From: Methylophilus sp. Leaf416
Lineage (GTDB): Bacteria > Pseudomonadota > Gammaproteobacteria > Burkholderiales > Methylophilaceae
Direction of reading: 5' to 3'
DNA length: 64,000 bases
Assembly (NCBI RefSeq): GCF_001424665.1
Contig: NZ_LMQS01000005.1
Location: forward strand, 322 to 64,321
Below the pieces are notes generated by a model that was not told where the DNA came from, did no database searches, and was given only the letters and a program-made list of their open reading frames with translations. A program made the position numbers and the translations under genes. Of the stretch, positions 5,874 to 51,978 are shown piece by piece; the first letter of the stretch is position 1; each line of letters starts with the position of its first letter.

Positions 5874-6752
5874 TTATTGCTTGAAAAGGGCGTCGAGTTT
5901 TTCTTCAAAGGCGTGATAACCGAGATGGGTATACAGGTCAGCACGCGTTTGCATCAGGTCCAGTACGTTTTTCTGTGTGCCATCCTTGCGCACACCCTGA
6001 TAGACGGTGAGGGCTGCCTGGTTCATGGCGCGGAAAGCAGAGAGTGGATATAGCACCATGCCCACGCCTGCCGTTGCCAATTCATCTACCGTAAACAATG
6101 GCGTCGCGCCAAATTCGGTGATATTCGCCAGTACCGGCACTTTGACCGCTTCAACAAATTGCTGGTACATCTTCAAGTCGGTCATGGCTTCCGGAAAAAT
6201 CATATCGGCACCGGCTTCTACACAAGCACTCGCGCGATCTATGGCTGATTGCAGCCCTTCCACCGCTAAAGCATCGGTACGTGCCATCACCACAAAATCA
6301 TCATAAGGTTTGGCATCCACTGCTGCTTTTACGCGGTCTACCATTTCATCCAGGCTGACGATGGCCTTGTTGGGCCTGTGTCCGCAACGTTTGGCGCTGA
6401 CCTGGTCTTCAATATGCACTGCAGCCGCACCGGCTTTAGCCACGCTTTTAATGGTACGGGCAATATTGAAAGCACCGCCAAACCCGGTATCAATATCTAC
6501 CAATAATGGCGTCTCCACCGCGTCAGTGATACGACGGACATCAATCAGCACATCTTCCAGCGTGGAAATACCTAAATCCGGCAAACCAAGCGAACCGGCC
6601 GCTACACCGCCACCAGACAGGTAAATGGCTTTAAAGCCGCTCTGTGTCGCCAGCATGGCGTGATAGGCATTAATGGCACCTATGATTTGTAACGGCTGTT
6701 CTGTCGCCAGCGCAGCACGGAAGCGTGCACCTGGCGTAAGAGATTGAATCAT
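5874..6752 (-). CDS. prpB: 2-methylisocitrate lyase
   Basis: 292-residue PEP mutase/isocitrate lyase superfamily enzyme splitting 2-methylisocitrate into pyruvate and succinate. The active-site loop KRCGH is present with Cys123, plus the [17 protein letters not shown] and VDIDTGFGG motifs, nearly identical to E. coli PrpB. Start ATG at 6752 with AGGAA about 10 bases upstream; a TTG two codons earlier is possible. The product succinate is the substrate of the SDH encoded on the opposite side of the cluster. Confidence 0.96.
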
Positions 6753-6777
6753 GATCAAGTTTTCCTGTTTGCCGGGG

Positions 6778-36234: not shown

Positions 36235-39200
36235 ATGCGTTTGTCGTCCGATGTCTCGTCGTCTGCTCACTCCCTGCAAAGGGATTGCAGCTATTGGATG
36301 CAACAGCTTGTTGAAGCCTGGAAACAGGGCGACTGGCCTGTGTGCCTGACATTGGCGCAGAAAATCACGACTGACTTCCCCGAGGAAGGCCTGGCCTGGA
36401 AGTTACTGGGCAGCCTGTATCAGCAGCAAGATCAATTAAGCGCTGCCGTAGAAGCCTTTTCACAGGCAGGAAAATTGCTGAAGAAAGATGCCGAAGTATT
36501 CTATAACCTTGCGAATGTACATGCACAGTTGCAGGAGCATCCACAAGCAATCAAACATTACCGCCAGACGCTCAAACTAAGCCCGGCCTTTAGCCGTGCC
36601 TATGCAAACTGGGCGAGCGTACTAAAAAAAACCGGTCAATTGAAAGAGGCCGAAAAACTATTGCGCCGCGGCCTGAATATTCACCAGCAGGATGGCCGTG
36701 TCAACTTTGAACTGGCAACCTTGCTGCATGAAGCAGACAAGCCATTGGAAGCGATCCAGTATTACCGAGAAGCGGCCGCTATCGAGCCAGGCAATGCCAT
36801 CATCTTTTTTAACATGGCGGTCGCGCTGGAGCTATTGGGTAACGAAAGTGAAGCCATTCAGGCCTATGAAACAGCTATTGCACATCAGCCAGACTATGTG
36901 GAAGCTTATAGCTATCTGGGCGCGCTATATCTTAAAAAAGCCAATTTTAATGAAGCGGAGCAATGGCTGCTTGCGGGCTACGCTGTCAACTCGCAAGAAT
37001 TATCCATATTAAAAAATCTGGCCAAGTTGTACCGGGTCACGCAACGTACACGCGAGTATCAGCATTACGTTGACCAGGTCATGCGCATGCAAGACTTTAA
37101 TGCGGAGCAATTGAATAATGTAGCCGCTGAATTACTGGATCAGTGCCTGTACGCAGAGGCTGAGCGCTATTGCAATAAAGCTTTGGAGCAGGACCCGGGT
37201 AACCCTTATATTTATGGCAACCTGGGGTTGATCGAGAATGCACGTTCAGCGTTTGACAAGGCATGCCTCAACTTTGAAAAAGCCCTGGAGTTGTTGCCTG
37301 ATTCTGAGGTGATACTGAGCAATTACAGTATCAGCCTGCGCCTGTTGGGCCGCTATCCTGAAGCGATTGCCAGCCTGGAAAAAGCCATTGCGCTCAAGCC
37401 TGACCACCTTTCAGCTTATATCAACCTGAGCAGTATTTACCTGGATCTGGGCAAAGCTGAACTGGCGATTGAGATACTGGAAAAAGTACTGGTGCAGGAC
37501 CCTGACCATGTTATGGCGCTGAGAAACCTGTTATTTTCAGATAGCTATGTGAATTACCTGACTGAAGAAAAACATACTGCCTATGTTGCCAGACTTGGGC
37601 AGTTAATGATGCAGGAAAAAACGCCGTTCGAGGCATGGAACATCCACAAAAATGACCAGCGCTTACGCGTAGGCATTGTGTCTGCAGATCTGAGACGCCA
37701 CCCGGTTGGTTATTTCATTGAAAACTGGGTAAAGCATTTTAATCCTGGCCAGCTGGAAGTCTATGGCTACTCTACCGATGGTCGTGAAGATGTACTCACG
37801 CACGAATTAAAAGGCTATTGCAACGAATGGCGCTCGCTGGCTGGTTTGACCGATGAACAGGCTGCACGCCTGATTCATAACGATGGCATTCATGTTTTAC
37901 TGGATTTGTCCGGCCTGACCGGCGGCACACGCTTACCTGTATTTGCCTGGAAACCGGCGCCGGTACAAGCTGCCTGGCTAGGTTACTGGGGTACCACTGG
38001 CTTGCCGGTGATGGATTATGTGATTGCTGACCCTGTCAGTGTCAATGCACAGGTGGCAAAACGCTTTACCGAGCAAATTGCCTATCTGCCGCATACCAGA
38101 TTGTGTTTTACGGCACCGCCATTCGACATTGCCGTCAATGCCTTACCTGCTGAACAATCGGGAGTTGTCACTTTCGGTTGCTATCAAAACTACACCAAGG
38201 TCACCGATGCGGTATTAACGCTTTGGGGACGCATTTTTGCAGCGCAGCCAGCAGCCAGGTTACGCTGGCAGTGCAAGACCTTCAACGATGCCGCCGCCAG
38301 GGCGGAAACCGTCGAAAGATTAGCTAACGTTGGTATCAATGCCGAGCGTTGTGAATTGCTGGGGATGGTGACGCGGGAGGCTTACCTGAAGAGCCATCAC
38401 GCAGTTGATATGATCCTGGATACTTTCCCTTTCAGTGGCGGTACCACGACTTGTGAAGCCTTGTGGATGGGTGTACCTACCCTGACATTGTTGAGCGATA
38501 CGCTGATCGGTCGCCAGGGTGCCAGCATGCTGACCTGCGCTGGTTTGAGCGACTGGGTGGCGGAAACTGCTGATGAATATGTAGAAAAAGCGGTGACATT
38601 CGCCAATGATTTGCCGGCTTTGGCCACCACGCGATTAGGTTTGCGGGCAAAAGTGTTGCAGTCACCATTGATGGATGCTGCACTATTTGCGCAAGATTTT
38701 GAAAGGCTGTTATTCAGCTTGTGGCAGCAGGCCACATCCGGCCTGACGGAAAATCAGCTACTTGCTCGCGCGCCAGTTCAGGCCGTGTTTAGCGGTGAGC
38801 AACCTGTATGGGTAGTCAGTGCCACACGCATGAGCGAAGAAGCCTTCTGGCGCGATGCGGCGCTGGGTAAATCTTTAAAACGTCATATGCGCCAGGATGC
38901 GCGACTGGTTGCCAGGATCGCTTGTGAAAACACGCGCGGCCTGTCCGAGATTTTTAATGACGCCATTGCTGCTGCGCCTGATGATGCCTTGCTTGTATTT
39001 ATCCATGACGATGTCTGGATTGATGAAAATACTTTTGTACAAACAATCACTGACGGCTTGCAGCAATACGACGTGATTGGGGTGGCCGGTAATGCCCGTA
39101 TTCAGCCCGGCCAAACCGGCTGGTGTTTTGTCGATACCAAATTTACTTGGGATGACACCGCTTATCTGCGTGGTGCAGTCAGTCATGGCCAGCACGCATT

Positions 39201-42200
39201 CGGTCCTGCATCCTCCTATGGAGAACCTGCCGGTGCTGCGCAATTAATGGATGGCGTTTTCCTGGCCGCTTATAAAAAGCGACTGGTCGAATCACAGGTG
39301 AGCTTTGATCCGCAGTTTGACTTTCACTTTTATGACCTGGATTTTTGCCGTACCGCCACCCGTGCCGGATTGCAACTGGGTGTGTGGCCTTTGCGCATGA
39401 CCCATCAAAGTGGCGGTGCATTTGGTACCCAGCGCTGGCGGGATAAATACCTGCAATATGCGCAAAAATGGGAACCAGCATTGCAAACACCATCCGCAGC
39501 GCTGGAAGCCTCCATTGCTGAAGTGTTTGACCAGGCAGCTGCGGAGCAGCAACTGGGCCGGTATGCTGCAGCACGCGCGCTGTACCAGGAAATCCTGCAG
39601 ATTCATCCCCGGCATGCATTGTCATTACATAACCTGGGCCTGATTGCCTGGGATGAGCAACAGCACACGCAAGCGATTGCTTTATTTGAGCAGGCTCACA
39701 GATTGGAGCCCGAGCAATGGCAATTATTGAGTAATTACCTGAATGCGTTACACGGTTCAAATGACCCTCAATTCCAGGAAGTACTGGGACAGGCATTGCA
39801 ACGCGGCCAGCATACGCAAGCACTGAACGCTTTGCTAGCCTCATGGGGATTGGCAGAGCAGGCGACCAGTGTTCAAGCCCTGGAAGCTGAGGAGGCGGAT
39901 TTACTTGGTCTGTTTGAGCTTGCCAAATACACCGAGATGCAACAGCGTTTGGACAGTGTGTTGCAACAGCACCCGGACTGGCTGAACGGCTGGAAAATGC
40001 TGAGCGACGTACGCATGTTGCTGAAGGAAGATGCACGCGAGCCGGCCAAGCGCGCCCTGGCACTCAATGCTAATGACCCGATAGAGCATTGCTATTACGG
40101 CCTGGTGCTGAAAGCACAGGGTGATTTGACCGCTGCCGTCCAGGCATTTGAACAAGCCATCGCACTGAAACCGGATTACGCAGCTGCCTACAATAACCTG
40201 GGTATTGTGCTGAAAGACCTGGGTGCCGTGGATAAAGCGATCGCCCACTTTAAACAGGCACTGACATTACAACCTGGCGATGCCGGTTGTTTCAGCAACC
40301 TGCTGTTTTGCATGAGCCATGCGCAAGGCATTCCCGCAGCAGAATTATTGCAGGCCCACCAGGCCTATGCAGAATTATATGAAGCACCGTTAAAAGCTCA
40401 CTGGCAGCCACATGACAATGACCGAGACCTGGATAGGCCACTGAAAGTAGGCTTTGTGTCTGCTGATTTTAGGGCGCATTCCATTCCCCATTTCCTCAAG
40501 CCATTGTTGCTTGGCTTGGCAAGTAACCAGCAACTGGAGTTGCATGCTTATTACAACCATCCAATAAGCGATCAAGTCACCGCAAAAATGCGTGAATATT
40601 TTGCCAGCTGGAAAGACGTCACTGAGCAGTCTGATGAGGCTCTGGCAAATACAATCCGCCAGGATGGCATTGATATCCTGATTGATTTATCCGGCCATAC
40701 CTCAGGTAACCGCCTGCTGACATTTGCCAGGAAACCTGCGCCTATCCAGCTTAGCTGGCTGGGCTATATGAACACCACAGGCCTGGCTGCTATGGATTAC
40801 TACCTGACGGATGAGGCATTGACGCCGGTTGGTGAGTTTGATGCCCAGTTCACTGAAAAACTGGTGCAGTTGCCGGTAAATGCGCCATTTATGCCAGATA
40901 CAAGCATGTCTGAGGTTAAGCCATTGCCTGCGTTAAGCAATGGTTATATCACCATTGGCTGCTTTAACCGCCCGAACAAAATCACGCAGGCCACCGTACA
41001 GTTATGGGCGCAGCTAATGCAAGTTGTACCAGATAGCCGTATGATCCTGGGGGGTATATCCTCTTCAGAGAATGGCAGTCATCTGGTGAGCTGGTTTCAG
41101 GAGGCAGGCATCGCGGGTGACCGCCTGCAACTGGTTGCGCGCAGTCACATGGCTGACTATTTACAGCAATACCATCGTGTAGATATTTGCCTGGATACCT
41201 TTCCGTCGAATGGGCTCACCACTACCGCCCATGCCTTATGGATGGGTGTACCTACGCTTTGCCAGGTAGGTGATCGCCTCAACAGCCGCGGTGCAATGGC
41301 ATTGATGCAGCATGCGGGTTTAAACAACTGGATTGCTGCAGATGCACAGGCCTGGATAGCTCAAGGGGCCACTTTATGTGCTGATCTTGCAGCGCTGGCA
41401 GAAGTACGTAACGGCATGCGTGAGCGCTTGCAACAGTCATTGTTGTCACAGCCTGCCAAATTGTCAGCCACCCTGGCTGATGCATTACGCGTGATGTGGC
41501 AACGCTGGTGCCAACACCAGCCTGCACAATCTTTTAACATGCACTTGCTTGCAGAAGAGAGCGACGCCCTGGCGTCACCTGCAACCCAACTGACCGCAAC
41601 CAAACAAATGACCTTAAAAGGACCCACCATGGAAACTTTAGCGATGCAATCTGCCCCTGCGGAAACAGCTTTAGACTCACAAAACGCTCACCAACAGACA
41701 CTGGAACAAACCGTTGAAGAAGTCTTGCAACTGGCGATACAGCACCAGGAAAAAGGAGAGTTGGCTGAGGCAGCAGCGCTGTACCAGGAGATTCTGGGGA
41801 TTGCCCCGAAACATGATGTGGCTTATTACGGGCTGGGGCTTATTGCTTTGCAGGAATCCGCTAAAGCAGCGTTGCCATTACTAGAGCAGGCTGTGATCCT
41901 GGCACCACAAACGCAGGATTACTGGACTGCCTATGTGCACGCCTTAATGCAAACCACGAACCAGAAAGAAGTGACTGAGGTCATCGCTTTCGCCAGACAG
42001 CATGGTTTGTCCGAAGCAGCGATTCAGCAACTGAACCAGGCTTGCCAGGAATTTTACGCGCAGGCTGCGCCGGTGAATGTTGCACTTGTTGCCACAGGCA
42101 ACCAGAAGCCAGCAACTGTTGGTGGTTATATTTACCGCGCGCAAGACAACTTTTACCAGCGTGCGCAGGCGGAAGCCTTTGGCTATGAGGATGCCGGTAA

Positions 42201-43800
42201 TGCCGAGCAACGTTTGTATGACATCATCCGCCAGGCCCGCGACAAAAGTGTATTTTCGGATGAATTGGCTTCCAAAGCGACTGACTGGCCCAGCTATTAC
42301 CACCTGACTTCACAACGCGCAAACCTGTTGCGTCCTTTTGCAGAGAAAATAGCTAACGGCAAGGTACTTGAGCTGGGTGCCGGTTGTGGTGCGATCACAC
42401 GTTTCCTGGGTGAGCTGGGCGGGGAAGTGGTCGTGGTGGAGGGCAGTCCTAACCGCGCCCGTATCATCGGCCAACGCTGCGCTGAGTTAAAGAACGTCAA
42501 TGTATTCTGCGATTTGATCCAGTCTTATGAGACGGATGAAAAATTTGATGTCGTCACTTTGATTGGCGTGCTGGAATACGCACAAGTGTATGTCAAGGAA
42601 CCTAATCCGCTGCTGACTTTACTGCAAAAAGCCAAGTCTTTCCTGAAAGAAGACGGCATGCTGATTGTGGCGATTGAGAACCAGCTGGGCCTGAAGTATT
42701 TCAACGGCGCGCCTGAAGACCATATGGGTCAGGCGATGTATGGTATTAATGATTCCTACAGCACTACCAGCCCGATCACCTTCGGCCGCGTCGAGCTCGA
42801 TGCATTGATCCGCAGCGCCGGTTTTGAAACGACAGAACTGTATGTGCCACTGCCTGATTACAAAACACCGGTCACTGTGATTTATCCTGAAGGGTTTAAC
42901 ATTGCGCATAAAGCAGCAGGCTGGGATATCGGTGCTTTGGCTGCCGGTTCAGTCGTGCATGACAGACAATCGCCACGTCATCCTACCTTCTCGCTGGAAA
43001 ATGCATGGAAAGTCCTTGCCCGCAATAACCTGGTAGAAGACATGGCCAACTCGTTTATGTTCGTGGCTTACCCTACGCAGCAAACCGGCAAACAGCATCC
43101 TGAGGTACTGGCAGCCCATTATGGTTGCCAGCGCCAGGCAGTGTTCAGCAAGGAAACCCAATTCGTGCAGGCTGACAAGGGATTGGTAACACGCACGCGT
43201 AATACCGGTGAGACTGTCAAACTGCTGACAGCAGACTGGGAACAATCTCCATACCACGGCGGTACTTTATGGATGGATAAACTGACCCAGTTGGTGAATC
43301 GTCCCGGATGGCATGTAGAGCATCTGGCTGCCTGGGCTGAAGTATGGGTAAAAGCACTTGCTGCCAATGCAACACAGAGTGGACATACCCTTCCGGAGTT
43401 TGCCGGAGCAACAGATTTGCTGCCATCAAAATACTTTGATGCCACACCGACTAATTTCGTGATGGATACACAAGGGCAAGGCCACTTCTTTGACCTAGAA
43501 TGGGACTTTGCTATTCCGCTGCCAGTGTCATTTGTGGCATTGCGTGGCCTGTTCCTGACATTGCATCGCATCCGTGGCTGCGCCAAGCCGCATGCGAATA
43601 CGCCATCTAATATTGGAGGCTTGTCACTGGCTATCCTGGAGATACTGGGGTATACCTACCAGGATCATGAGTTGCAGGCGTTTATCAGTGTATTCAACCG
43701 TTTGCAGAACCTGATCCAGGGCTTGCCGGAACAACATGTGAATGGCTTGACGGCGGAATTCTCCCGCGCTGTATTGCCGGTGCGTCAGCTGTTTACTTAA
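36235..43800 (+). CDS. Giant TPR / dual O-GlcNAc-transferase-like (GT41) / GT2 / methyltransferase protein
   Basis: 2521 residues, cytoplasmic by appearance. Order: TPR repeats about 40-440; GT41 module about 475-830 with His489 (RRHPVG) and Lys655 (NYTK) at the positions of the key His498 and Lys842 of human OGT, and DTFPFSGGTTT; GT2-like domain about 857-1078 with the DD pair at 925 (HDDVW) and FDFHFYDLDF; second TPR block about 1098-1380; second GT41 module about 1400-1750 with His1415 and Lys1582; linker; third TPR block about 1828-1950; class I SAM methyltransferase about 2035-2225 (VLELGAGCGAITRFLG); unrecognised C-terminal part to 2521. Such TPR-glycosyltransferase fusions decorate flagellin in other proteobacteria. 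An internal ribosome site and ATG at 41629 (residue 1799) suggest fusion of two genes. Confidence 0.88.
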   Translation: MRLSSDVSSSAHSLQRDCSYWMQQLVEAWKQGDWPVCLTLAQKITTDFPEEGLAWKLLGSLYQQQDQLSAAVEAFSQAGKLLKKDAEVFYNLANVHAQLQEHPQAIKHYRQTLKLSPAFSRAYANWASVLKKTGQLKEAEKLLRRGLNIHQQDGRVNFELATLLHEADKPLEAIQYYREAAAIEPGNAIIFFNMAVALELLGNESEAIQAYETAIAHQPDYVEAYSYLGALYLKKANFNEAEQWLLAGYAVNSQELSILKNLAKLYRVTQRTREYQHYVDQVMRMQDFNAEQLNNVAAELLDQCLYAEAERYCNKALEQDPGNPYIYGNLGLIENARSAFDKACLNFEKALELLPDSEVILSNYSISLRLLGRYPEAIASLEKAIALKPDHLSAYINLSSIYLDLGKAELAIEILEKVLVQDPDHVMALRNLLFSDSYVNYLTEEKHTAYVARLGQLMMQEKTPFEAWNIHKNDQRLRVGIVSADLRRHPVGYFIENWVKHFNPGQLEVYGYSTDGREDVLTHELKGYCNEWRSLAGLTDEQAARLIHNDGIHVLLDLSGLTGGTRLPVFAWKPAPVQAAWLGYWGTTGLPVMDYVIADPVSVNAQVAKRFTEQIAYLPHTRLCFTAPPFDIAVNALPAEQSGVVTFGCYQNYTKVTDAVLTLWGRIFAAQPAARLRWQCKTFNDAAARAETVERLANVGINAERCELLGMVTREAYLKSHHAVDMILDTFPFSGGTTTCEALWMGVPTLTLLSDTLIGRQGASMLTCAGLSDWVAETADEYVEKAVTFANDLPALATTRLGLRAKVLQSPLMDAALFAQDFERLLFSLWQQATSGLTENQLLARAPVQAVFSGEQPVWVVSATRMSEEAFWRDAALGKSLKRHMRQDARLVARIACENTRGLSEIFNDAIAAAPDDALLVFIHDDVWIDENTFVQTITDGLQQYDVIGVAGNARIQPGQTGWCFVDTKFTWDDTAYLRGAVSHGQHAFGPASSYGEPAGAAQLMDGVFLAAYKKRLVESQVSFDPQFDFHFYDLDFCRTATRAGLQLGVWPLRMTHQSGGAFGTQRWRDKYLQYAQKWEPALQTPSAALEASIAEVFDQAAAEQQLGRYAAARALYQEILQIHPRHALSLHNLGLIAWDEQQHTQAIALFEQAHRLEPEQWQLLSNYLNALHGSNDPQFQEVLGQALQRGQHTQALNALLASWGLAEQATSVQALEAEEADLLGLFELAKYTEMQQRLDSVLQQHPDWLNGWKMLSDVRMLLKEDAREPAKRALALNANDPIEHCYYGLVLKAQGDLTAAVQAFEQAIALKPDYAAAYNNLGIVLKDLGAVDKAIAHFKQALTLQPGDAGCFSNLLFCMSHAQGIPAAELLQAHQAYAELYEAPLKAHWQPHDNDRDLDRPLKVGFVSADFRAHSIPHFLKPLLLGLASNQQLELHAYYNHPISDQVTAKMREYFASWKDVTEQSDEALANTIRQDGIDILIDLSGHTSGNRLLTFARKPAPIQLSWLGYMNTTGLAAMDYYLTDEALTPVGEFDAQFTEKLVQLPVNAPFMPDTSMSEVKPLPALSNGYITIGCFNRPNKITQATVQLWAQLMQVVPDSRMILGGISSSENGSHLVSWFQEAGIAGDRLQLVARSHMADYLQQYHRVDICLDTFPSNGLTTTAHALWMGVPTLCQVGDRLNSRGAMALMQHAGLNNWIAADAQAWIAQGATLCADLAALAEVRNGMRERLQQSLLSQPAKLSATLADALRVMWQRWCQHQPAQSFNMHLLAEESDALASPATQLTATKQMTLKGPTMETLAMQSAPAETALDSQNAHQQTLEQTVEEVLQLAIQHQEKGELAEAAALYQEILGIAPKHDVAYYGLGLIALQESAKAALPLLEQAVILAPQTQDYWTAYVHALMQTTNQKEVTEVIAFARQHGLSEAAIQQLNQACQEFYAQAAPVNVALVATGNQKPATVGGYIYRAQDNFYQRAQAEAFGYEDAGNAEQRLYDIIRQARDKSVFSDELASKATDWPSYYHLTSQRANLLRPFAEKIANGKVLELGAGCGAITRFLGELGGEVVVVEGSPNRARIIGQRCAELKNVNVFCDLIQSYETDEKFDVVTLIGVLEYAQVYVKEPNPLLTLLQKAKSFLKEDGMLIVAIENQLGLKYFNGAPEDHMGQAMYGINDSYSTTSPITFGRVELDALIRSAGFETTELYVPLPDYKTPVTVIYPEGFNIAHKAAGWDIGALAAGSVVHDRQSPRHPTFSLENAWKVLARNNLVEDMANSFMFVAYPTQQTGKQHPEVLAAHYGCQRQAVFSKETQFVQADKGLVTRTRNTGETVKLLTADWEQSPYHGGTLWMDKLTQLVNRPGWHVEHLAAWAEVWVKALAANATQSGHTLPEFAGATDLLPSKYFDATPTNFVMDTQGQGHFFDLEWDFAIPLPVSFVALRGLFLTLHRIRGCAKPHANTPSNIGGLSLAILEILGYTYQDHELQAFISVFNRLQNLIQGLPEQHVNGLTAEFSRAVLPVRQLFT

Positions 43801-43853: not shown

Positions 43854-43937
43854 ATGGTTGCTGGATATGAAGCTCAGCAGACTAGCAAACTGTACGCTTA
43901 GTTTGCTTGCAACAAAGAGCAGTAGCTTTGAGGGTTT

Positions 43938-44635
43938 AATCGGTATTTCTTTGGTTATTCACCTATGTATTTCGCCTTTATGCGAGTTACTTTTCTTTGC
44001 TTGCCCAAAGAATAAGTAACCAAAAGAAAGGGCACCCTAGCTCCGCTTGTTTCCTGCGTTGCTCGTCAAAATAAGCGGTCGCGAAACTCGCCCTGACAAG
44101 CCACACACTTCGTGGCTTGTTGCGGAGCTCAGACAGTCGCACCCTTCCTCCTTATTTTGACTCCGCTACTCGGCGCGTCAGATAGGGAACCCTGAAAGAC
44201 ACTACGCAGTTATTTGGGTAAGTTTCCTAACATTGCATCCCGCTCGACTAGCGTAAGAAAACAAATCAAAAGCAAAGCAGAAAGATAGTTGGCGGGTTCG
44301 TCTTAAATTACACAGGTGCTTAGCGCCCTCAATCCCAACCCGTTTAACTAACGTTCCATCGTGATGGTTTTAAACGGGCCCCTATCTGACGCGCCGAGTA
44401 GCGCAGTCAGCGTGGGAGTCTTCGGCCAGCGTCTGTTTGAGTTCCGCGGTGGCTTGCGTTCTTTGCAAGCCGCTAGGGCGAGTTTTGTTGGACGCCCACG
44501 TTGACGAGCAACGCAGGGAAAAAGCGGAAGCTAGGGTGCATTTCTTTTGGTTACGTTTTCTTTGGGCAAACAAAGAAAAGTAACTCGCCTAGAGGCGAAA
44601 AAGAACGCTTAATACACCCTAAGAAATACCGATTA
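43938..44635. repeat. 0.7-kb long inverted repeat filling the gene-free gap
   Basis: Two arms of about 250 bp (43938-44185 and 44382-44635) are reverse complements with scattered differences: TAATCGGTATTTCTT at 43938 versus its complement ending 44635, the GCGAGTTACTTTTCTTTG blocks at 43982 and 44588, and a perfect 22-bp inner pair at 44164-44185 / 44382-44403. The 196-bp centre carries a nested hairpin (CCCGTTTA/TAAACGGG, 44339-44378). Together with the terminator this accounts for the 904-bp interval 43801-44704, in which I see no credible gene. The GAGTTACTTTTCTTT-type sequence is a dispersed intergenic element I associate with many beta- and gammaproteobacteria; no transposase is present. 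Confidence 0.75.
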
Positions 44636-44704: not shown

Positions 44705-46096
44705 CTAGAACATCGTTTCCATGCATTTACGGATATGCGGAATAGAAGCCGCTGAATTAGGCGCATGCTTGCTCAGTTTCACCAGCGTCTGCAATGCCTT
44801 ATCCGCCTTTTGCTGCAAACAATATACTTCCGTCAGATTGCTCAGCGGAATCGCAGGGTTTTCCTGCGCGAAATGCACCGCTTTTTCCAGCAGCATCTCG
44901 GCATCTTCAAATTGCCCCTGGCTGACCAGCAAGGTACCCAGGTCGTTGTAGGGTTCCCAGCAGGTACTGCCTTTTTTGATCAGCTCCAGCATGATCTGGG
45001 TAGACAGTTGCATATCGCCTTCTGCAGCCAGCTGTTCTGCATGCTGGTAAGTCGTACGGTCGATTTCCACCTGGGCTGTCAGTGGTGGTGTCGGTAATGG
45101 CTGGCATTGCAAGGCTGCGACCATATTGTCCACAATCAATCTGGCGCTTTCACCAAGATGGGCAAATTGCTGTTTTTTATTCGTATCAATCTCGGTCTGG
45201 TATTGCTGCGGATTCTCCAGCACATTCAATACGGTGTCGCGCAGGTTGGCGCGTGTGGTTTTGGTGACATAATCATATGGCACGCAAGCCGGTCTTGGCG
45301 GGTTGGTGTCAGGAATCACCCAGTCAATCACTGCCACGCCGGGCACGTCCAGCAGCAAAGCTTCGGTCAGCACACTGGATTCGTCAGATACCATGACATC
45401 GGCCAGCCCCAGGCAGTACATAATGCTGATCTCGCGATCAATCACATAGACATTGTCGGCGCAGCCTCTGTGCAGGGCATCCATCTCGTCAATATTATTC
45501 AGCACCCAGCGGTATTTTTCTGACCAGGGCGCCTGTTTCAGCAGGAGGTTGACCGGCAAATCTTTTAACGCCTGTACAAAGTCATCCTGCTTGCCGTGGT
45601 TTTCCCATGAAGGAGCATATAACACAGAGCGCTCGTATTTCAGGCCCAGTTGCTCGCGCAAGGCTTTTGCCTGCTGCTTGAATTCATCCTGGTTGCGGTA
45701 GACCAGGTCGGCCTTGGGCCAGCCCAGGTCAAATACGCCTAATTTAGGCCTGGCCTTGGCAAATACTGCCTGTGTTTGCCAGCGTTCTACCCAGTTGGCG
45801 CCGGGTACGATGCCCATATCAAAGGCATCCCACGGTTCGTGATGCCAGAAATGCGGCCAGATATCATGGCGCTGTGCCAGATCGTGCAGCAATATGATGG
45901 AAAAGCCGGCATTGGGCTTGCAAGCATGCTCGCAATAGACACCGATTTCAGCATATTGCCTGGAATCCATGCTCCATTGAATCGGAAAACCTCTGCCTGC
46001 CGCTTCATCCGCGATAGGTGCTAATGCCTGGCGCTCGCAATTATCGGTATAAAAGAAAGTAATCGCAGGCAGGGTGCTAAGTGTGGATGTCGTCAT
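44705..46096 (-). CDS. CDP-glycerol glycerophosphotransferase-like protein with TPR tail
   Basis: 463 residues. Residues 1-335 resemble the CDP-glycerol:poly(glycerophosphate) glycerophosphotransferase fold (SVLYAPSWENHGK, SDESSVLTEALLLDVPGVAVIDW), enzymes that move a phospho-alcohol from a CDP-activated donor to a polymer. Residues about 345-455 are TPR-like (YNDLGTLLVSQGQFEDAEMLLEKAV). Last gene of the phosphonate operon, 9 bases after the methyltransferase. Inference: it transfers aminoethylphosphonate from CMP-AEP to a glycan. A plain glycosyltransferase-B role is the alternative. Confidence 0.7.
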   Translation of the reverse strand: MTTSTLSTLPAITFFYTDNCERQALAPIADEAAGRGFPIQWSMDSRQYAEIGVYCEHACKPNAGFSIILLHDLAQRHDIWPHFWHHEPWDAFDMGIVPGANWVERWQTQAVFAKARPKLGVFDLGWPKADLVYRNQDEFKQQAKALREQLGLKYERSVLYAPSWENHGKQDDFVQALKDLPVNLLLKQAPWSEKYRWVLNNIDEMDALHRGCADNVYVIDREISIMYCLGLADVMVSDESSVLTEALLLDVPGVAVIDWVIPDTNPPRPACVPYDYVTKTTRANLRDTVLNVLENPQQYQTEIDTNKKQQFAHLGESARLIVDNMVAALQCQPLPTPPLTAQVEIDRTTYQHAEQLAAEGDMQLSTQIMLELIKKGSTCWEPYNDLGTLLVSQGQFEDAEMLLEKAVHFAQENPAIPLSNLTEVYCLQQKADKALQTLVKLSKHAPNSAASIPHIRKCMETMF

Positions 46097-46105
46097 GATC
46101 AGTCG

Positions 46106-46804
46106 TTATCCATGTAAATGTTTGGAGAAAATCACACTGAAGCGAAATTCGCTTTGCGTATAGTTGGGCACGCAGCTTTCGAAGGCCTGGTGCGGCCATT
46201 GCGGCAACTGATTGATAAACCATTCCGGAGTGTAATAAGTGTGGTGCAAACCACGGTATTTCTCTTCGTATTCAGCCTCAGTTAGCGCTTCACGGCGAGC
46301 CAGCTCACAGGCTGCCCTAGTGGCTGCATTCGGGACATCCAGTATGGCAATACCATGCCTGGCTTTTTTCCACATGGCTTGTAATACCTGTGCGGCGGTC
46401 GCTTCATCGAAATAGTGAAACACGCTATTGGCAATGACAAAATCGTAGCCTGTTTCGGTATCGAGAGACTGCGCACCTTGTACCAGGAATTCACCGTCTG
46501 GCATGGCTTTTTGAGCGGCTGCTATCAAACCTGCGGCATAATCCAGGCCGCCGACTTCCAGTGCCATTTGTTCACGCAATGAGAAAAGGAAAGCGCCGGC
46601 ACCGCAACCAACTTCAAATACGGAGTTGCCCGGTTTCAGGCCCAATTTTTCACTGATGCGGCGGGTATATTCCTGCCAGTCGGCCAGGTTGATCTTGCCG
46701 GCACCGCTATCAAAGCCATCCAGCGAGATCAAGGTCTCGAGCGTGATTGCATGTTGCGGTTGCAGGGTACGTTTTTCCCAGATTTGTTGCCATAAATTGC
46801 TCAT
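46106..46804 (-). CDS. Class I SAM-dependent methyltransferase
   Basis: 232 residues; SAM motif I VFEVGCGAGAFLFSL near 60, motif II/III YDFVIANSVFHYF, then AILDVPN. ATGA overlap with the upstream cytidylyltransferase. In a phosphonate operon, N-methylation of aminoethylphosphonate or methylation of the acceptor sugar is plausible; neither is shown by sequence. Confidence 0.8.
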   Translation of the reverse strand: MSNLWQQIWEKRTLQPQHAITLETLISLDGFDSGAGKINLADWQEYTRRISEKLGLKPGNSVFEVGCGAGAFLFSLREQMALEVGGLDYAAGLIAAAQKAMPDGEFLVQGAQSLDTETGYDFVIANSVFHYFDEATAAQVLQAMWKKARHGIAILDVPNAATRAACELARREALTEAEYEEKYRGLHHTYYTPEWFINQLPQWPHQAFESCVPNYTQSEFRFSVIFSKHLHG

Positions 46805-47211
46805 GAGTTAGCTTCCATTTTTTGACTGACGGCTTTGAGCACACGAGCACGCAACTGTGTGCTGCTGATGCCTTCTGTGCGTGGCAGGATATGTAGTTTT
46901 TCAGCCGCGATCGGATTACTGTTATCGTGGCCGTGTACCAGTAAATCAATATTGTGCTGCGCTAAAAACGCTTCATCCAGCAGCCAGGGGCTGGGCACAA
47001 CTTCATCGACATCTCGCATCGCCAGTAACACTTCTGCACGAGCGGTATAATCCAGCTCAGGCTCATAGCCTTTCTTGCTGCGGATTTCTTCGTCGGTGGT
47101 CAAGGCCACTACTACGTGACCTAGCTGTTTCGCCTGTTTTAGCAGGCGGACATGCCCGTGATGGATCAGGGTGGCGGACATATCAACCATGATGCGTTTT
47201 GGTGCGTTCAC
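46801..47211 (-). CDS. TagD-like cytidylyltransferase
   Basis: 136 residues, a free-standing nucleotidyltransferase of the glycerol-3-phosphate/phosphonate cytidylyltransferase type: HHGH (residues about 17-20) and RTEGISST near 110 are the CTP-binding motifs. Start is GTG 47211, overlapping the stop of the transaminase gene (GTGA). Likely activates aminoethylphosphonate or a related phospho-compound with CTP. A second such domain is fused to the PEP mutase. Confidence 0.85.
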   Translation of the reverse strand: MNAPKRIMVDMSATLIHHGHVRLLKQAKQLGHVVVALTTDEEIRSKKGYEPELDYTARAEVLLAMRDVDEVVPSPWLLDEAFLAQHNIDLLVHGHDNSNPIAAEKLHILPRTEGISSTQLRARVLKAVSQKMEANS

Positions 47212-48200
47212 GCCAGTACCTCCAGCATATTTAAGATCTCACCCGTTGCCGCTGAGCCGAGGTGCGCTTCACCAAGGTGGCAAACTACGCTACCACGACT
47301 GATGCCGCGTGGTGCATACAACACGGCACGTGGGTCACGCGAGCCTATCCTGGCATCTACCCAGGTGCACAATGCAGGCTGGTGACTCGCCGGATGGGTG
47401 GCATAGCCTGAAAATTTTTGCAGCATGGCCGTTTTATTAATAAATACGGCCTCGCGTAAATCATTATGCTTGGGCAACACTTCATATAATGAAGCAATTG
47501 CATGGTAAGGGCCGGTCATGCGCCGCTCCAGATGCGTATGCAGGTTCAGGTAAAACCCGTCCACGCTATTGGTCGGCAACTGGTTAAATGCAATGAATGC
47601 AGCACCGGTCAGGCCAAACAGTCCTTTGCAGGAACTATAGGCAATCACATCCGCCTGGTCGTGGTCGGCTTCCAGGCCGATAGAGGCGGTCGCATCCAGG
47701 AAAAGTTGTGCATCTACGCGGTTTGCCAGCACACGTAATTCATTCATGGGTAGTTTCAGGCCTATGCTGGTTTCGGTGTAGCAGGCGACGACCCAGTCAT
47801 ATTGTCCAGCAATATCTGCAATATCCAGCCAGTTGACCACGGTAACCGTACGCACATGGCCCAGACGCTGGGCTGCTTCGGCAAAACTTGCCAGGCGTTG
47901 GGCATAGTAGCCGCTGTCTATCACCAGCACTTTGCCGAACAGGAAATTCAGTGAGGCGATTTCCAGCGCCAGGCTGGCAGAGCCTTGCAGGCGGGCGATC
48001 TGGGCATGACCTGTCATGCTTTTTAATGCATCGAGGACAGCCTGTTCTACCTGCTGGTAATCTGTATCGCCACGGCCAAAACACGGCCGCAAGCCGAGCA
48101 GGTTTTCTTCCAGCAAACTGGCTGGCCCAGCAGTAAACAAGGCTTTGGCGCTATTTTTCTGCGTGATATGCGCCAATAGAGTTGGCGACTGGTCAGGCAT
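47208..48200 (-). CDS. Class V aminotransferase, probable 2-aminoethylphosphonate-forming transaminase
   Basis: 330-residue PLP enzyme of the PhnW/alanine-glyoxylate aminotransferase group: LFTAGPASLLEENLL start, RLQGSASLALE, LFLDATASIGLE, and PLP lysine in SSCKGLFGLTGAAF. Phosphonoacetaldehyde to 2-aminoethylphosphonate is the expected step after the decarboxylase. Start overlaps the ppd stop by 8 bases. Confidence 0.85.
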   Translation of the reverse strand: MPDQSPTLLAHITQKNSAKALFTAGPASLLEENLLGLRPCFGRGDTDYQQVEQAVLDALKSMTGHAQIARLQGSASLALEIASLNFLFGKVLVIDSGYYAQRLASFAEAAQRLGHVRTVTVVNWLDIADIAGQYDWVVACYTETSIGLKLPMNELRVLANRVDAQLFLDATASIGLEADHDQADVIAYSSCKGLFGLTGAAFIAFNQLPTNSVDGFYLNLHTHLERRMTGPYHAIASLYEVLPKHNDLREAVFINKTAMLQKFSGYATHPASHQPALCTWVDARIGSRDPRAVLYAPRGISRGSVVCHLGEAHLGSAATGEILNMLEVLA

Positions 48201-49353
48201 ACGCGACCTCTTCCAAAAATTGCATAAAGTCTTGTTTGTTCTGTGCCGGTGTACGGGTAGGGCGACCTAAATCAGCGCGTGCTCCACGTCGGCACAGCAC
48301 TTCGATAAAGCAGCTTTGGCCCAGGCTCAAGGCATACTGTAATGCCTCACTGAGCTGGCTGTTCGAGCTGACCCGGATGACCCACTGGTAACCGGCTGCT
48401 TTGGCAATGCTGGAAAGATTCAATTGTGCGGCCACGGTAGGCTGGCCGCCAACAGAATCATGCGCACCATTGTTAAAGACGATATGTACCAGGTTGTGTT
48501 GTTGTGCGCTCAATGTCAGGCTGCCCATATGCATCAGCAGGGCACCATCTCCATCCAGGCAAACCACTTGCCGGTCCGGCTGTGCCAACGCGATGCCGCA
48601 GGCAATTTGTGAAGCATGCCCCATGCCGCCTACGGTTAAAAAATCTCGTGCATGACCGCTATTGTTTGCATGCCTGAATTCAAATAGCTCGCGCGATGCC
48701 ATGCCAGTCGTGGAAACCACGGCGACATCATTGGAAAGCAGGCTGACGATACGCGTCAGCATATCCTCACGGCTAGGCAGTAAAGCATCTTTGCCCGCTG
48801 GTTTGTTGGCCGATTTTGGTTTGTAAGGCGCAAAGCATTGTTTGCGCACCACCAAAGCCACCGGGCCTGACCGGCGTTTTGCCAGGGATAGCAGCCGGCG
48901 GGTTTGTGTCAATGCGCAACTAAGATCAGTCTGGAAAATTTCAAACGGAATACCCATGATTTCCAATTGCTCAAGCGTGATCTGGCCTTGCTTGACGTGC
49001 TGCGGTTCATCATGGATCTGCGTACCATCCTGCTGCATTTCACCACGCCAGCCAATCACCATCAGCATGGGGATACCATAAATCTGCGGGTCAGCCAGGG
49101 AAGCGACAGGGTTCACCACATTGCCTAGACCGGAATTTTGCATATAGACCAGTGCAGGACTGCCAGTGGCAAGATAATGCCCCATGGCCAGACCAGTAGC
49201 ACCCCCTTCATTGGCGGCAATCACATGTTTGTGTTCCGGAAGACGATCAGAAAAACAGGCGCATAACTCCTTTAATAAGGAATCAGGCACACCGGTAAAA
49301 AACTGCACGCCTGCCAGTTGCAGCGCCTCAAGAAATGCACCAGCTTCTATCAT
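48193..49353 (-). CDS. ppd: Phosphonopyruvate decarboxylase
   Basis: 386-residue thiamine-diphosphate enzyme. N-terminal FFTGVPDSLLKELCACF with NEGGATGLAMGHYLA, C-terminal TPP motif GDGALLMHMGSLTLSAQQ...NN. Converts phosphonopyruvate to phosphonoacetaldehyde, the irreversible step that pulls the PEP mutase reaction. ATG 49353 with AAGGAG 8 bases upstream; 17 bases after pepM. The frame is open further upstream but inside pepM. Confidence 0.94.
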   Translation of the reverse strand: MIEAGAFLEALQLAGVQFFTGVPDSLLKELCACFSDRLPEHKHVIAANEGGATGLAMGHYLATGSPALVYMQNSGLGNVVNPVASLADPQIYGIPMLMVIGWRGEMQQDGTQIHDEPQHVKQGQITLEQLEIMGIPFEIFQTDLSCALTQTRRLLSLAKRRSGPVALVVRKQCFAPYKPKSANKPAGKDALLPSREDMLTRIVSLLSNDVAVVSTTGMASRELFEFRHANNSGHARDFLTVGGMGHASQIACGIALAQPDRQVVCLDGDGALLMHMGSLTLSAQQHNLVHIVFNNGAHDSVGGQPTVAAQLNLSSIAKAAGYQWVIRVSSNSQLSEALQYALSLGQSCFIEVLCRRGARADLGRPTRTPAQNKQDFMQFLEEVAYA

Positions 49354-49370
49354 GGTGGATGCTCCTTTTA

Positions 49371-50669
49371 TTATTTGGTACCAGGGATCAGTGACAACAC
49401 GTCGTTGATCGACATCAGTTCGGATTCGACTTCTGCGGTCCGCCCATTTTTGAGAATTTCCATGGCCGTACGCTGCATAGCCGGATAAGCTGCGCGCATC
49501 ATGTGGTTGGCATAAATCACCAGGTTGAATCCACGGGCGGCCAGTTCTTCTTCGGTCACCGTGCAGTAACTGGTAGGTACACACACCAATGGTGTCGTCG
49601 GGAATTCGGATTTAAAGATTTTGGCAAACTCGAATACTTCGTCCGGCGATTTCTGGCGGCTGTGTATCATGATGCCGTCCACGCCTGCACCGACATAAGC
49701 TTGTGCACGTTTGACGGCGTCTTCCATACCTTTTTCCAGGATCAGGCTTTCGATACGCGCAATCACCATAAAGTCATCACTGACACGGGCGGCACGGCCG
49801 GCGGCGATCTTGTCGCAGAAGGGTTGAATGTCATCCTGCAATTGCGCAACCTCATTGCCAAACAGAGAATTCTTTTTTAAGCCTATTTTGTCTTCAATGA
49901 TGGTGGCGGAAATACCAAGGCGTTCCATGCTGCGCACATTGAGTTCAAAGTGCTCCAGCTTGCCGCCGGTATCAGCGTCCATCACCAATGGTTTGGTGGT
50001 GACATCGAAAATATCGTTGATATTGGATAAACGGCTGTTGATCTCCAGTGCTTCAATATCCGGTTTGCCGCGCGCAGTGGAGTCAGTCAGTGAGCTGGAC
50101 CAGAAACCATCGAACTGGCAGTTTTTGCCATTGCGTTGGGCAATCGCATGCTCTGCAATGAGGGCCGAGATCGGGTTATGTGCTTCGATAAAGCGGGAAA
50201 TCGGTTTGGCGGCCAGTAATCTTTTTAAGGTACGGCGGCGGATATCGGGCGTGGTTCCCAGTGTTTGTATCTGGCCCAGCATCTCGTTGGATGAGATGCC
50301 GCGGGTGTAAGGAATCTCAATGAGATGGCCGCCATATTCAGCCAGTGCTGCGCGGGCGCGTTCACGATAAGGCAGTAATGGGCCATCCAGCCAGTCATCG
50401 CCATGCACCATGATGTCAGGTTTGTGTTTCAGCAGGTTGGGTGCGTAGTCCCATTCGTCCTGTGGCACGACATTGACCACACCACGGATATTCTCAACGA
50501 TAGATTTACGTTGATCATAAGTCAGGTAGGGCAAGCGTTTGTGATCTGCCACAGCCGCATCCGACAATAAACCAATCGTGACATCGCCGTACTTTCTTGC
50601 CTGCTCGATGATATTGATATGCCCGTGATGCAGAATATCTACCGTCATACCTACATAAACTGATGCCAT
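49371..50669 (-). CDS. pepM: Cytidylyltransferase-PEP mutase fusion
   Basis: 432 residues. 1-135: TagD-like nucleotidyltransferase (HHGH at 14-17, RGISSNEM at 123-130). 145-432: phosphoenolpyruvate mutase with the diagnostic EDK-x5-NS motif (EDK 259-261, NS 267-268) and VMDADTGG. Rearranges PEP to phosphonopyruvate, the entry step of nearly all natural phosphonates; the N-terminal domain predicts CTP activation of the product in the same protein. AGGAG 7 bases before the ATG. Head of the six-gene operon, divergent from fliC. Confidence 0.95.
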   Translation of the reverse strand: MASVYVGMTVDILHHGHINIIEQARKYGDVTIGLLSDAAVADHKRLPYLTYDQRKSIVENIRGVVNVVPQDEWDYAPNLLKHKPDIMVHGDDWLDGPLLPYRERARAALAEYGGHLIEIPYTRGISSNEMLGQIQTLGTTPDIRRRTLKRLLAAKPISRFIEAHNPISALIAEHAIAQRNGKNCQFDGFWSSSLTDSTARGKPDIEALEINSRLSNINDIFDVTTKPLVMDADTGGKLEHFELNVRSMERLGISATIIEDKIGLKKNSLFGNEVAQLQDDIQPFCDKIAAGRAARVSDDFMVIARIESLILEKGMEDAVKRAQAYVGAGVDGIMIHSRQKSPDEVFEFAKIFKSEFPTTPLVCVPTSYCTVTEEELAARGFNLVIYANHMMRAAYPAMQRTAMEILKNGRTAEVESELMSINDVLSLIPGTK

Positions 50670-50950
50670 GCAACACTCCTATATATATGCCTTGTTCACA
50701 TCCGCCAGAAAGGCGAGCTGAACATCTGTAGGAATTATGAAGTGCAGGGTATGAAATTAATTGTGTGAAAAACGCCTTAAAGCACCTTTAAATCCTTATC
50801 TATATATAAGGTTGCTTTTCAGGCAGATATCGCATCCGCTAGTTAAATAAATTAAGAGGTGATTCACGGCTAACTCCGCAAATGAGTTTGGGCGGGCCTT
50901 ATTTAAAATAGGTCAAATTGAATTTATAACCATTAAATTTAAATAAGGAC

Positions 50951-50977
50951 TAAAGAACTTCGAAGAGCCGTCGTTAA
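50951..50977 (+). promoter_or_regulatory. Second possible sigma-28 promoter
   Basis: TAAAGAAC, 11-base spacer, GTCGTTAA; weaker match than the one downstream. Confidence 0.35.
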
Positions 50978-51034
50978 CAGAAACAAGTGCTCGACCGATG
51001 TAAAGATGTAAAAAAGAAATTTTAAATGCAACAT

Positions 51035-51061
51035 TAAAGAAATTTCGTAAGCGGTCGATAA
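51035..51061 (+). promoter_or_regulatory. Sigma-28 (FliA) promoter of fliC
   Basis: TAAAGAAA (51035-51042), 11-base spacer, GTCGATAA (51054-51061) against the consensus TAAAGTTT-N11-GCCGATAA; 119 bases before the fliC ATG. Confidence 0.8.
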
Positions 51062-51180
51062 CATAAACAACAACGATGAATTAGCAAGATTTAGTAAGTA
51101 GTAAGCGAATCAACGTTGAAGTAATAGTAATACGACGATTTGACACTTAACTGGATATACGACTCTCAAGGAGAAATAAC

Positions 51181-51978
51181 ATGGCTGCTGTAATTAACAC
51201 AAACATTGCATCTTTAAACGCACAACGTAACCTGAGTGCTTCACAATCAAGCATGAATCAATCGATTCAACGTTTGTCTTCAGGTCTGCGCATTAACAGT
51301 TCTAAAGATGACGCTGCTGGCTTGGCAATTGCTACACGTATGGACGCACAAATCCGCGGTATGGATGTAGCGGTTCGTAACTCTAACGACGCGATTTCTT
51401 TCCTGCAAACTGCTGAAGGTGGTTTGTCTAAAGGTACAGACGCTCTGCAACGTATGCGTGAACTGGCTGTACAGGCTGCTAACGGTTCTTATAGCTCTGG
51501 TGACCGTGCAAACCTGAATGCTGAATTCTCACAACTGTCTTCAGAATTGACCCGCTTGAGCACTGCCACCAAGTTCAACGGTGAGCCAGCTTTAGGCCAG
51601 GGCTATCAGTTCCAGGTAGGTGCAGATGCATCTGACACTATCAGCGTTAGCTCTGTAGCTGCGGTAAGTATGTCTGGTTCCCTGTCTACAGCAGCTTCTG
51701 CTTCTGCTGCACTGACAGCGATCGATGCGGCACTGGATACAGTGAACACCAACCGTGCGACATTGGGTGCTTACCAAAACCGTTTTGAATCTGTGATCAG
51801 CAACCTGCAAATTTCGTCTGAGAACATGTCTGCTGCCAAGTCTCGTATCATGGATGCCGACTTTGCTTCAGAAACAGCGAAGATGACACGTGCACAGATC
51901 CTGCAACAAGCTGGTACAGCAATGTTGGCTCAGGCGAACCAGTTGCCTAACCAAGTGATGACACTGTTAAGAGGTTAA
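51181..51978 (+). CDS. fliC: Flagellin
   Basis: 265 residues: conserved N-terminal D0/D1 (AAVINTNIASLNAQRNL, QRLSSGLRINSSKDDAAGLAIA, LQRMRELAVQAANG) and C-terminal D1/D0 (ENMSAAKSRIMDADFASETA, AMLAQANQLPNQVMTLLRG). The middle is only about 40-50 residues, Ser/Ala rich (SVSSVAAVSMSGSLSTAASAS), so the variable D2/D3 domains are absent. The filament surface would be the D1 serine/threonine-rich face, the usual place for glycosylation. AAGGAG before the ATG; sigma-28 promoter upstream. Confidence 0.97.
   Translation: MAAVINTNIASLNAQRNLSASQSSMNQSIQRLSSGLRINSSKDDAAGLAIATRMDAQIRGMDVAVRNSNDAISFLQTAEGGLSKGTDALQRMRELAVQAANGSYSSGDRANLNAEFSQLSSELTRLSTATKFNGEPALGQGYQFQVGADASDTISVSSVAAVSMSGSLSTAASASAALTAIDAALDTVNTNRATLGAYQNRFESVISNLQISSENMSAAKSRIMDADFASETAKMTRAQILQQAGTAMLAQANQLPNQVMTLLRG

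Follow-up and report, generated by a model that had tools for sequence, protein, structure and literature searches.

What does a set of phosphonate-synthesis genes do when it stands back to back with a flagellin gene? The question is raised by a stretch of 64,000 nt from Methylophilus sp. Leaf416 (G000:C5:322-64321; hereafter the window, within which all coordinates are counted), where six genes run along the minus strand from 50669 to 44705, the pepM fusion first and a phosphotransferase (PT) gene last, divergently from fliC. We consider it probable that this operon makes the cytidine monophosphate (CMP) derivative of 2-aminoethylphosphonate (AEP) and attaches AEP, perhaps N-methylated, to an O-glycan of flagellin. 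The operon's physical tie to both flagellin and a GT41-type glycosyltransferase is conserved, as supported by the genomes compared below.

Genes and enzymes of the locus

The features of the locus are listed here by coordinates, strand and type (CyTase, cytidylyltransferase; PEP, phosphoenolpyruvate; PepM, PEP mutase; TPP, thiamine pyrophosphate; PLP, pyridoxal phosphate; SAM, S-adenosylmethionine; TPR, tetratricopeptide repeat; aa, amino acids).

49371..50669, minus strand: CyTase-PepM fusion, a Fom1-like cytidylyltransferase (HHGH, RGISS) at the N terminus and a PEP mutase (TIGR02320) at the C terminus
48193..49353, minus strand: TPP-dependent phosphonopyruvate decarboxylase (TIGR03297; start inferred)
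47208..48200, minus strand: divergent class-V PLP aminotransferase, predicted to convert phosphonoacetaldehyde to AEP (TIGR03301, below cut-off)
46801..47211, minus strand: second cytidylyltransferase, CyTase 2 (HHGH, RTEGISS), predicted CMP-AEP synthase (PF01467)
46106..46804, minus strand: SAM methyltransferase, possibly N-methylating AEP (profile and PDB similarity)
44705..46096, minus strand: PT, a TagF-like phosphotransferase with C-terminal TPRs, predicted to take the phosphonyl group from CMP and place it on a glycan (PF04464)
36235..43800, plus strand: giant protein of 2521 aa, predicted cytosolic flagellin O-glycosyltransferase (TPR, GT41, GT2-like and methyltransferase stretches)
42037..43800, plus strand: C-terminal part of the giant protein, a methyltransferase plus an unclassified kinase-like domain of ~300 aa (conservation, synteny)
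50670..51180, no strand: divergent intergenic region between pepM and fliC, 511 bp
51035..51061, plus strand: sigma-28-like fliC promoter, TAAAGAAA-N11-GTCGATAA, identical in 11 of 11 regions scanned
51181..51978, plus strand: fliC, a 265-aa flagellin, proposed carrier protein (PF00669 and PF00700)

All six phosphonate-type open reading frames (ORFs) that the initial annotation had placed at 44705-50669 were located there and assigned to families by profile scores; chance ORFs were rejected, because orthologues of all six are conserved in order. Junctions between the genes measure, in operon order, +17, -8, -4, -4 and +9 bp, and the tight spacing described at first holds, whereas the described overlaps of 1-8 bases do not: three of the five junctions overlap, by 4-8 bases. 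The divergence from fliC across about 0.5 kb was recovered as a 511-bp spacer between opposite strands, and the giant TPR glycosyltransferase gene, said to lie just past the operon, is convergent to the PT gene across 904 bp. The ORFs after fliC we take to be flaG, fliD, fliS, fliF and fliG. A candidate second pepM in the genome (G000:C5:6276-7040, overlapping the window ORF at 5874-6758) was rejected: its PEP_mutase-family match of 118.8 bits is far under the cut-off, and we take it as a methylisocitrate-lyase-type paralogue.

The first two enzymes fall clearly within their families. The PEP mutase scores 411.5 bits against TIGR02320 (curated cut-off 319.55), and its EDKIGLKKNS fits the EDK-x5-NS motif noted at the outset; the phosphonopyruvate decarboxylase, likewise named there, scores 477.1 bits against TIGR03297 (curated cut-off 312.5), with its start placed by choice at ATG 49353, where the listed ORF is longer and begins at GTG 49584. 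Both cytidylyltransferase modules exceed the Pfam cut-off of PF01467 and keep HxGH and R..GIS(S/T), the motifs of such enzymes, intact. The N-terminal domain of the fusion finds its best PDB match in 5x3d (E 1.3e-45), an entry titled phosphoenolpyruvate phosphomutase that is presumably the Fom1 CyTase domain, and CyTase 2 finds its own in the ethanolamine-phosphate cytidylyltransferase 3elb (3e-19), being nearer to ethanolamine-phosphate and glycerol-3-phosphate cytidylyltransferases. The proposed phosphonate synthesis and CMP activation are thus supported, at the level of sequence, by the PepM and decarboxylase cut-offs and the CyTase motifs.

The remaining proteins would act on the activated phosphonate and its acceptor. 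A profile of the methyltransferase gives four PDB matches (1e-6) that we read as SAM-binding parts, phosphoethanolamine N-methyltransferases accounting for two of them; because the matches cover the SAM-binding part, N-methylation of AEP is only a guess. The resemblance of PT to CDP-glycerol phosphotransferases, recognized in the initial annotation, is borne out by PF04464 (25.6 bits against a cut-off of 22.1, over part of the profile only), together with a TPR_19 match, and its profile matches Cps3D (4.7e-6) and TagF (0.011) in the PDB. The giant protein is a GT41-type protein by its match to PF13844 (326 bits against 25; 3.9e-97) in four stretches, with further matches to several TPR families, Glyco_tranf_2_5 and Methyltransf_12; GT41 is a family of protein glycosyltransferases. 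Its C-terminal part, overlooked in the initial annotation, stands alone beside PT in Methylotenera and is joined to PT in Andreprevotia, and this methyltransferase/kinase-like domain appears to belong to the phosphonate module. A search for a kinase fold in the ~300-residue kinase-like stretch returned nothing useful, with zero PDB matches to E 10 and no convincing match in Pfam; with identities as low as 18%, nine sequences of the stretch share an invariant D-x4-N-x12-D-x-E-W, a D-N-D pattern reminiscent of the catalytic motif in aminoglycoside-kinase-like folds.

We hypothesize that PEP mutase and the decarboxylase would lead from PEP to phosphonoacetaldehyde, which the transaminase would turn into AEP; one or both cytidylyltransferases would then yield CMP-AEP, and the methyltransferase may N-methylate the product. 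The giant TPR/GT41 enzyme would put a sugar on serine or threonine residues of flagellin in the cytosol, before export, and PT would transfer the phosphonyl group from CMP to this flagellin-bound sugar, with the methyltransferase/kinase-like domain at the giant's C terminus presumably acting in the same capping module. We infer that the phosphonate is AEP itself, that flagellin carries it, that it may be N-methylated, that the site is cytosolic and that the steps run in this order.

Conservation of the flagellin locus

Conservation of this neighborhood in relatives had been set beforehand as a test, and the comparison bears it out: the linkage is kept in all ten other genomes of the genus that bear pepM and in Methylotenera. 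In a sample of 150 Methylophilaceae genomes, TIGR02320 is over its cut-off in 14, of which 11 are Methylophilus (Leaf416 included), two are Methylotenera (group g7) and one belongs to group g10. The stretches around all 13 other pepM loci were compared, and 12 of them carry the six orthologues in the same order. The arrangement of giant gene, six genes and divergent fliC is identical in all ten other pepM-bearing Methylophilus genomes, and the locus is present in M. methylotrophus DSM 46235 (L062/L042), which is not known to be pathogenic. G070 (48% complete), fourteenth among the family's sampled pepM genomes, gave zero matches to the FliC of the window, has a different locus and was left out of the flagellin-linked counts. 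In the two g7 Methylotenera genomes, a protein like the N-terminal half of the giant, the six genes and a stand-alone version of the giant's C-terminal part follow one another on one strand. Three Methylotenera genomes have the six genes pointing the same way as fliC, and the gap from the end of PT to fliC measures 3.4 kb in G051, 2.5 kb in L068 (the third Methylotenera, a metagenome-assembled genome, MAG) and 24 kb in G027, where other genes, mostly unassigned, lie between them on the same strand.

All 22 Methylophilus genomes were also searched for PT and for the giant's C-terminal domain, and both occur in the same 13: the 11 that bear pepM plus G139 and G145, which are not counted as pepM-bearing because each contig (4.9 and 4.6 kb, respectively) breaks off within the transaminase gene. 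These two show the order aminotransferase, CyTase 2, methyltransferase, PT and giant gene. In the fliC stretches of the nine other genomes of the genus (L044-L052, 12-20 kb each), the six genes have no BLAST match.

Some variants of the locus deserve description in their own right. In G105 (L033:9083-10435), CyTase and PepM are two abutting, unfused ORFs. In G125 (L049:3617-19107), a GT41-like giant protein that ends before the C-terminal domain lies beside fliC, with a TOD1/FkbM-like protein between the two, type I restriction genes beyond and phosphonate genes absent from the stretch; a different decoration may be encoded at this site. G081 and G099 (L044, L045) each have three flagellin genes within ~5 kb, plus a 531-aa, weakly TPR-similar protein among flagellar genes. 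In Leaf416, a palindromic intergenic element of ~680 bp (43937-44635), with nested inverted arms of 18, 114 and 43 nt, lies between PT and the giant gene and matches many places in its own genome (44 overlapping BLAST pieces); because the gap between these genes is only ~120-300 bp in the ten pepM-bearing relatives of the genus, the element looks like an insertion here, outside the operon proper.

PT itself was followed beyond the family with a pattern scan of genome contigs based on its alignment, which reduced 86 pattern matches to 15 loci: nine from Methylophilus, three from Methylotenera and one each from Andreprevotia sp. IGB-42, Ca. Accumulibacter contiguus and an unclassified Pseudomonadota MAG. 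PT is rare, being found in 2 of 369 genomes of the class (Leaf416 and G246) and 4 of 399 of the order (Leaf416, G019, G036 and G1231, which appears to be the same Andreprevotia genome). The cluster of Andreprevotia (Chitinibacteraceae) is built differently: it has a PepM-NTP_transf_3 fusion (TIGR02320, 383.5), a decarboxylase (TIGR03297, 403) and an AEP transaminase (TIGR03301, 362 against a cut-off of 360.8), all three passing their curated cut-offs. These AEP genes are followed by a methyltransferase 49% identical to that of the window, and a 2061-aa protein joins PT (62% identical) and the giant's C-terminal domain (39%) to RgpF and GT2; its gene ends 209 bp before fliC, after which come flaG and fliD homologues. 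Because the Andreprevotia cluster has both, a homologous PT and methyltransferase serve a curated AEP pathway beside flagellin. The linkage to fliC therefore recurs in three genera (Methylophilus, Methylotenera and Andreprevotia) with different cluster architectures.

How unusual this linkage is was gauged in broader samples. In the class sample, PEP mutase was found at E <= 1e-80 in 29 of 368 genomes other than Leaf416 (26 of the 29 over the cut-off), and 12 of these 29 have flagellin-family (PF00669) matches; in the phylum sample it was found at E <= 1e-95 in 18 of 397 other genomes, 15 of them with PF00669 matches. This count includes G363 from the class sample, with a PepM below the cut-off, and G678 from the phylum sample, with an internal stop in its match. 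The two genes lie within 50 kb on one contig in none of the 27 other genomes with both pepM and flagellin, of which 21 test little, as their pepM and flagellin genes fall on separate contigs. Distances on a single contig, available for six genomes, are ~76 kb (G678), ~96 kb (G362), ~100 kb (G268), ~357 kb (G517) and >1 Mb (G481 and G721).

Chemistry, regulation and carrier of the predicted modification

Several observations weigh against AEP on flagellin as the product of this locus, and they concern its chemistry, its regulation and its carrier. The transaminase scores 65.3 bits against TIGR03301, below the curated cut-off of 360.8, and has zero Pfam matches at 0.001; the class V of the initial annotation stands, albeit as a remote assignment, and because of this score we class the enzyme simply as one that works like an AEP transaminase. 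Additionally, two CyTases for a single product lack an explanation. The weak transaminase score, with Pfam silent, and the two intact-motif CyTases of different type, one of them Fom1-like, favor a decidedly unlikely alternative in which flagellin is decorated with a phosphonate other than AEP, such as an amine variant from an unusual transaminase or two different CMP-phosphonates made by the pair of CyTases. Against it stands the best solved relative of the transaminase, which is an AEP transaminase: a profile of seven orthologues matches the AEP-pyruvate transaminase 7e7g first in the PDB (4e-16), followed by 2yri, 1m32 (AEP transaminase) and 6pd1 (a nucleotidyltransferase/aminotransferase fusion), and K192 aligns with the lysine of 7e7g that we take to be the PLP-binding lysine. 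Moreover, the PT and methyltransferase homologues of Andreprevotia accompany an AEP transaminase that passes its cut-off, and the CyTase 2 homologue of G070 (L031; 67% identical) is fused to a class-V aminotransferase, a fusion in which the R..GIS(S/T) motif was not found; because of this fusion, CyTase 2 fits a module leading from AEP to CMP-AEP.

Regulation lends no support to a switch shared with flagellin. Judged by the sigma-28 consensus, the 11 intergenic regions (two of which ended slightly short of the pepM start) hold no conserved sigma-28-like site toward the pepM operon, and a weak partial one is listed on the operon-facing strand in only two of them. Sigma-28 control of the operon was rejected, the conserved site being absent from that strand, and co-regulation of the operon with fliC is for the same reason unsupported. 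Synteny inside Methylophilus may also reflect a single inheritance event. Three changes are required for the pepM label on a FliC tree with 28 rows, and well-supported branches force at least two of them; 0 of 500 shuffles come as low.

The carrier is the point at which other PT loci matter most. The fused protein of Andreprevotia has no GT41 match, and GT41 is therefore not common to all three flagellin-linked genera. No flagellin locus surrounds PT in the stretches examined from L071, L072 and L075. The L071 stretch of Accumulibacter places PT and the C-terminal domain next to genes for ABC2_membrane and Wzt_C-like transporters and for a WbsX glycosyltransferase; in G246 (L075), which has only partial PepM matches below the cut-off, on other contigs, and zero PF00669 matches, PT adjoins a polysaccharide flippase-like gene; and in L072 its homologue adjoins glycosyltransferase-like genes. 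A BLAST match to the methyltransferase of the window is present in the three flagellin-linked genera and absent from these three stretches. In C. difficile, a mutant in CD0244, which is glycerophosphotransferase-like, still made some of the full flagellin modification, leaving the role of that gene unclear (PMC4441256). Because homologues of PT adjoin polysaccharide genes, the family is not flagellin-specific, and the carrier is therefore one that we infer; PT looks like a glycan transferase with a context-dependent carrier.

The neighborhoods in Accumulibacter (Wzm/Wzt-type genes), G246 and L072, together with a CyTase-PepM fusion in a guanosine diphosphate-sugar/flippase locus of the same family (G070), speak for an alternative that we regard as unlikely, in which the operon decorates a surface polysaccharide (a lipopolysaccharide O-chain or exopolysaccharide) and adjoins fliC since the site collects surface-glycan genes. 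What favors flagellin instead is that no transporter, flippase or polymerase gene lies in the window between the giant gene and fliC, and that neither the six operon proteins nor the giant protein have a clear membrane span by hydropathy (PT, the aminotransferase and the giant protein each have one single 19-residue window slightly above 1.6). Additionally, the partner enzyme belongs to a type of protein glycosyltransferase, and the fliC linkage holds in three genera with differently built clusters, against a distance of at least 76 kb between pepM and flagellin in the six measurable other genomes.

That pepM elsewhere need not adjoin flagellin would also suit a free or lipid-bound phosphonate unconnected to the flagellum, which we consider very improbable given that the operon is conserved along with a TagF-like transferase and a glycosyltransferase and that pepM is linked to fliC in three genera. 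A CDP-alcohol transferase at 31903 (PF01066) was considered as a phosphonolipid enzyme and set aside; its gene comes after a UvrC gene.

The Accumulibacter locus is also of interest in itself: in L071:2704-14959, PepM-NTP_transf_3, PT and the methyltransferase/kinase-like domain are joined to Wzm/Wzt-type genes and WbsX, making it a candidate for a phosphonate-capped exported polysaccharide.

Known systems and biological meaning

The initial annotation knew of no flagellin with a carbon-phosphorus bond, a statement now outdated, as FliC of C. difficile bears 2-AEP on its N-acetylglucosamine, identified by tandem mass spectrometry (PMC8861647); this is the only phosphonate on flagellin in the literature that we found. 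C. difficile is reported to be pepM-negative, with an unknown source for its AEP (PMC8861647), and its main type A group is N-methylthreonine phosphate (PMC8861647, PMC4441256). The type A system resembles ours in that a flagellin O-glycan carries a phosphorus group (measured there, predicted from genes here), and its layout recurs in the window as a flagellin-linked glycosyltransferase, a CyTase, a methyltransferase and a glycerophosphotransferase-like gene, a comparison of layout rather than of protein homology. It differs in that a CD0241-like phosphoserine-phosphatase gene is not among the six of the window, and in contrast with C. difficile a full phosphonate synthesis set lies inside the Methylophilus flagellin locus.

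Nucleotidyltransferase fusions are found in ~60% of Ppm proteins, with the PF01467 fusion at 23.6% (PMC6697681). The pathways of PntC share with our locus a PepM-cytidylyltransferase fusion and a CMP-phosphonate donor for surface tailoring, but the two characterized PntC enzymes belong to PF12804 (PMC6697681), whereas the CyTases of the window belong to PF01467; the string 'flagell' is absent from the main text of that paper. Fom1 of fosfomycin biosynthesis, whose substrate is hydroxyethylphosphonate (PMC6697681), likewise holds an N-terminal CyTase and a C-terminal PepM in one protein, but serves an antibiotic pathway, whereas the window adds a transaminase, a methyltransferase and a TagF-like transferase. 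To TagF and Cps3D, PT is similar over ~130-200 residues; it differs from them in its TPRs and its linkage to phosphonate genes, and would transfer a single unit instead of building a polymer. WbdD of E. coli O9a, in which a methyltransferase is joined to a kinase, caps its chain (PMC3482155), and the giant's C-terminal part similarly has a methyltransferase followed by a kinase-like domain, a likeness of layout and D-N-D motif only, with a PDB sequence match absent. A Pelobacter paper was set aside as a precedent: it mentions a PEP phosphomutase and flagellins, but not together. A pepM operon in a flagellin locus was not found in the literature searched, which left subscription papers mostly and preprints wholly outside, and a search for flagellin glycosylation in Methylophilus found nothing.

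We lean, if only slightly, toward a portable capping module, made up of PT and the methyltransferase/kinase-like domain, that draws on any available PepM pathway and serves differing carriers, and that would give rise here to the first flagellum with a self-made phosphonate from a dedicated locus. Flagellin would be its carrier in Methylophilus and Methylotenera (with a GT41-type enzyme) and, with RgpF/GT2, in Andreprevotia, and Accumulibacter and others would probably use polysaccharide. What is new here is a synthesis locus dedicated to what is probably a flagellar phosphonate. If the proposal is true, the locus would provide a candidate enzyme for phosphonyl transfer, one of the tailoring steps termed enigmatic in PMC6697681, and a genetic handle on phosphonoglycoproteins, a proposed marine phosphonate source (PMC8931226). 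Whether phosphonates are built into bacterial flagella becomes a directly testable question in methylotrophs, including M. methylotrophus DSM 46235.

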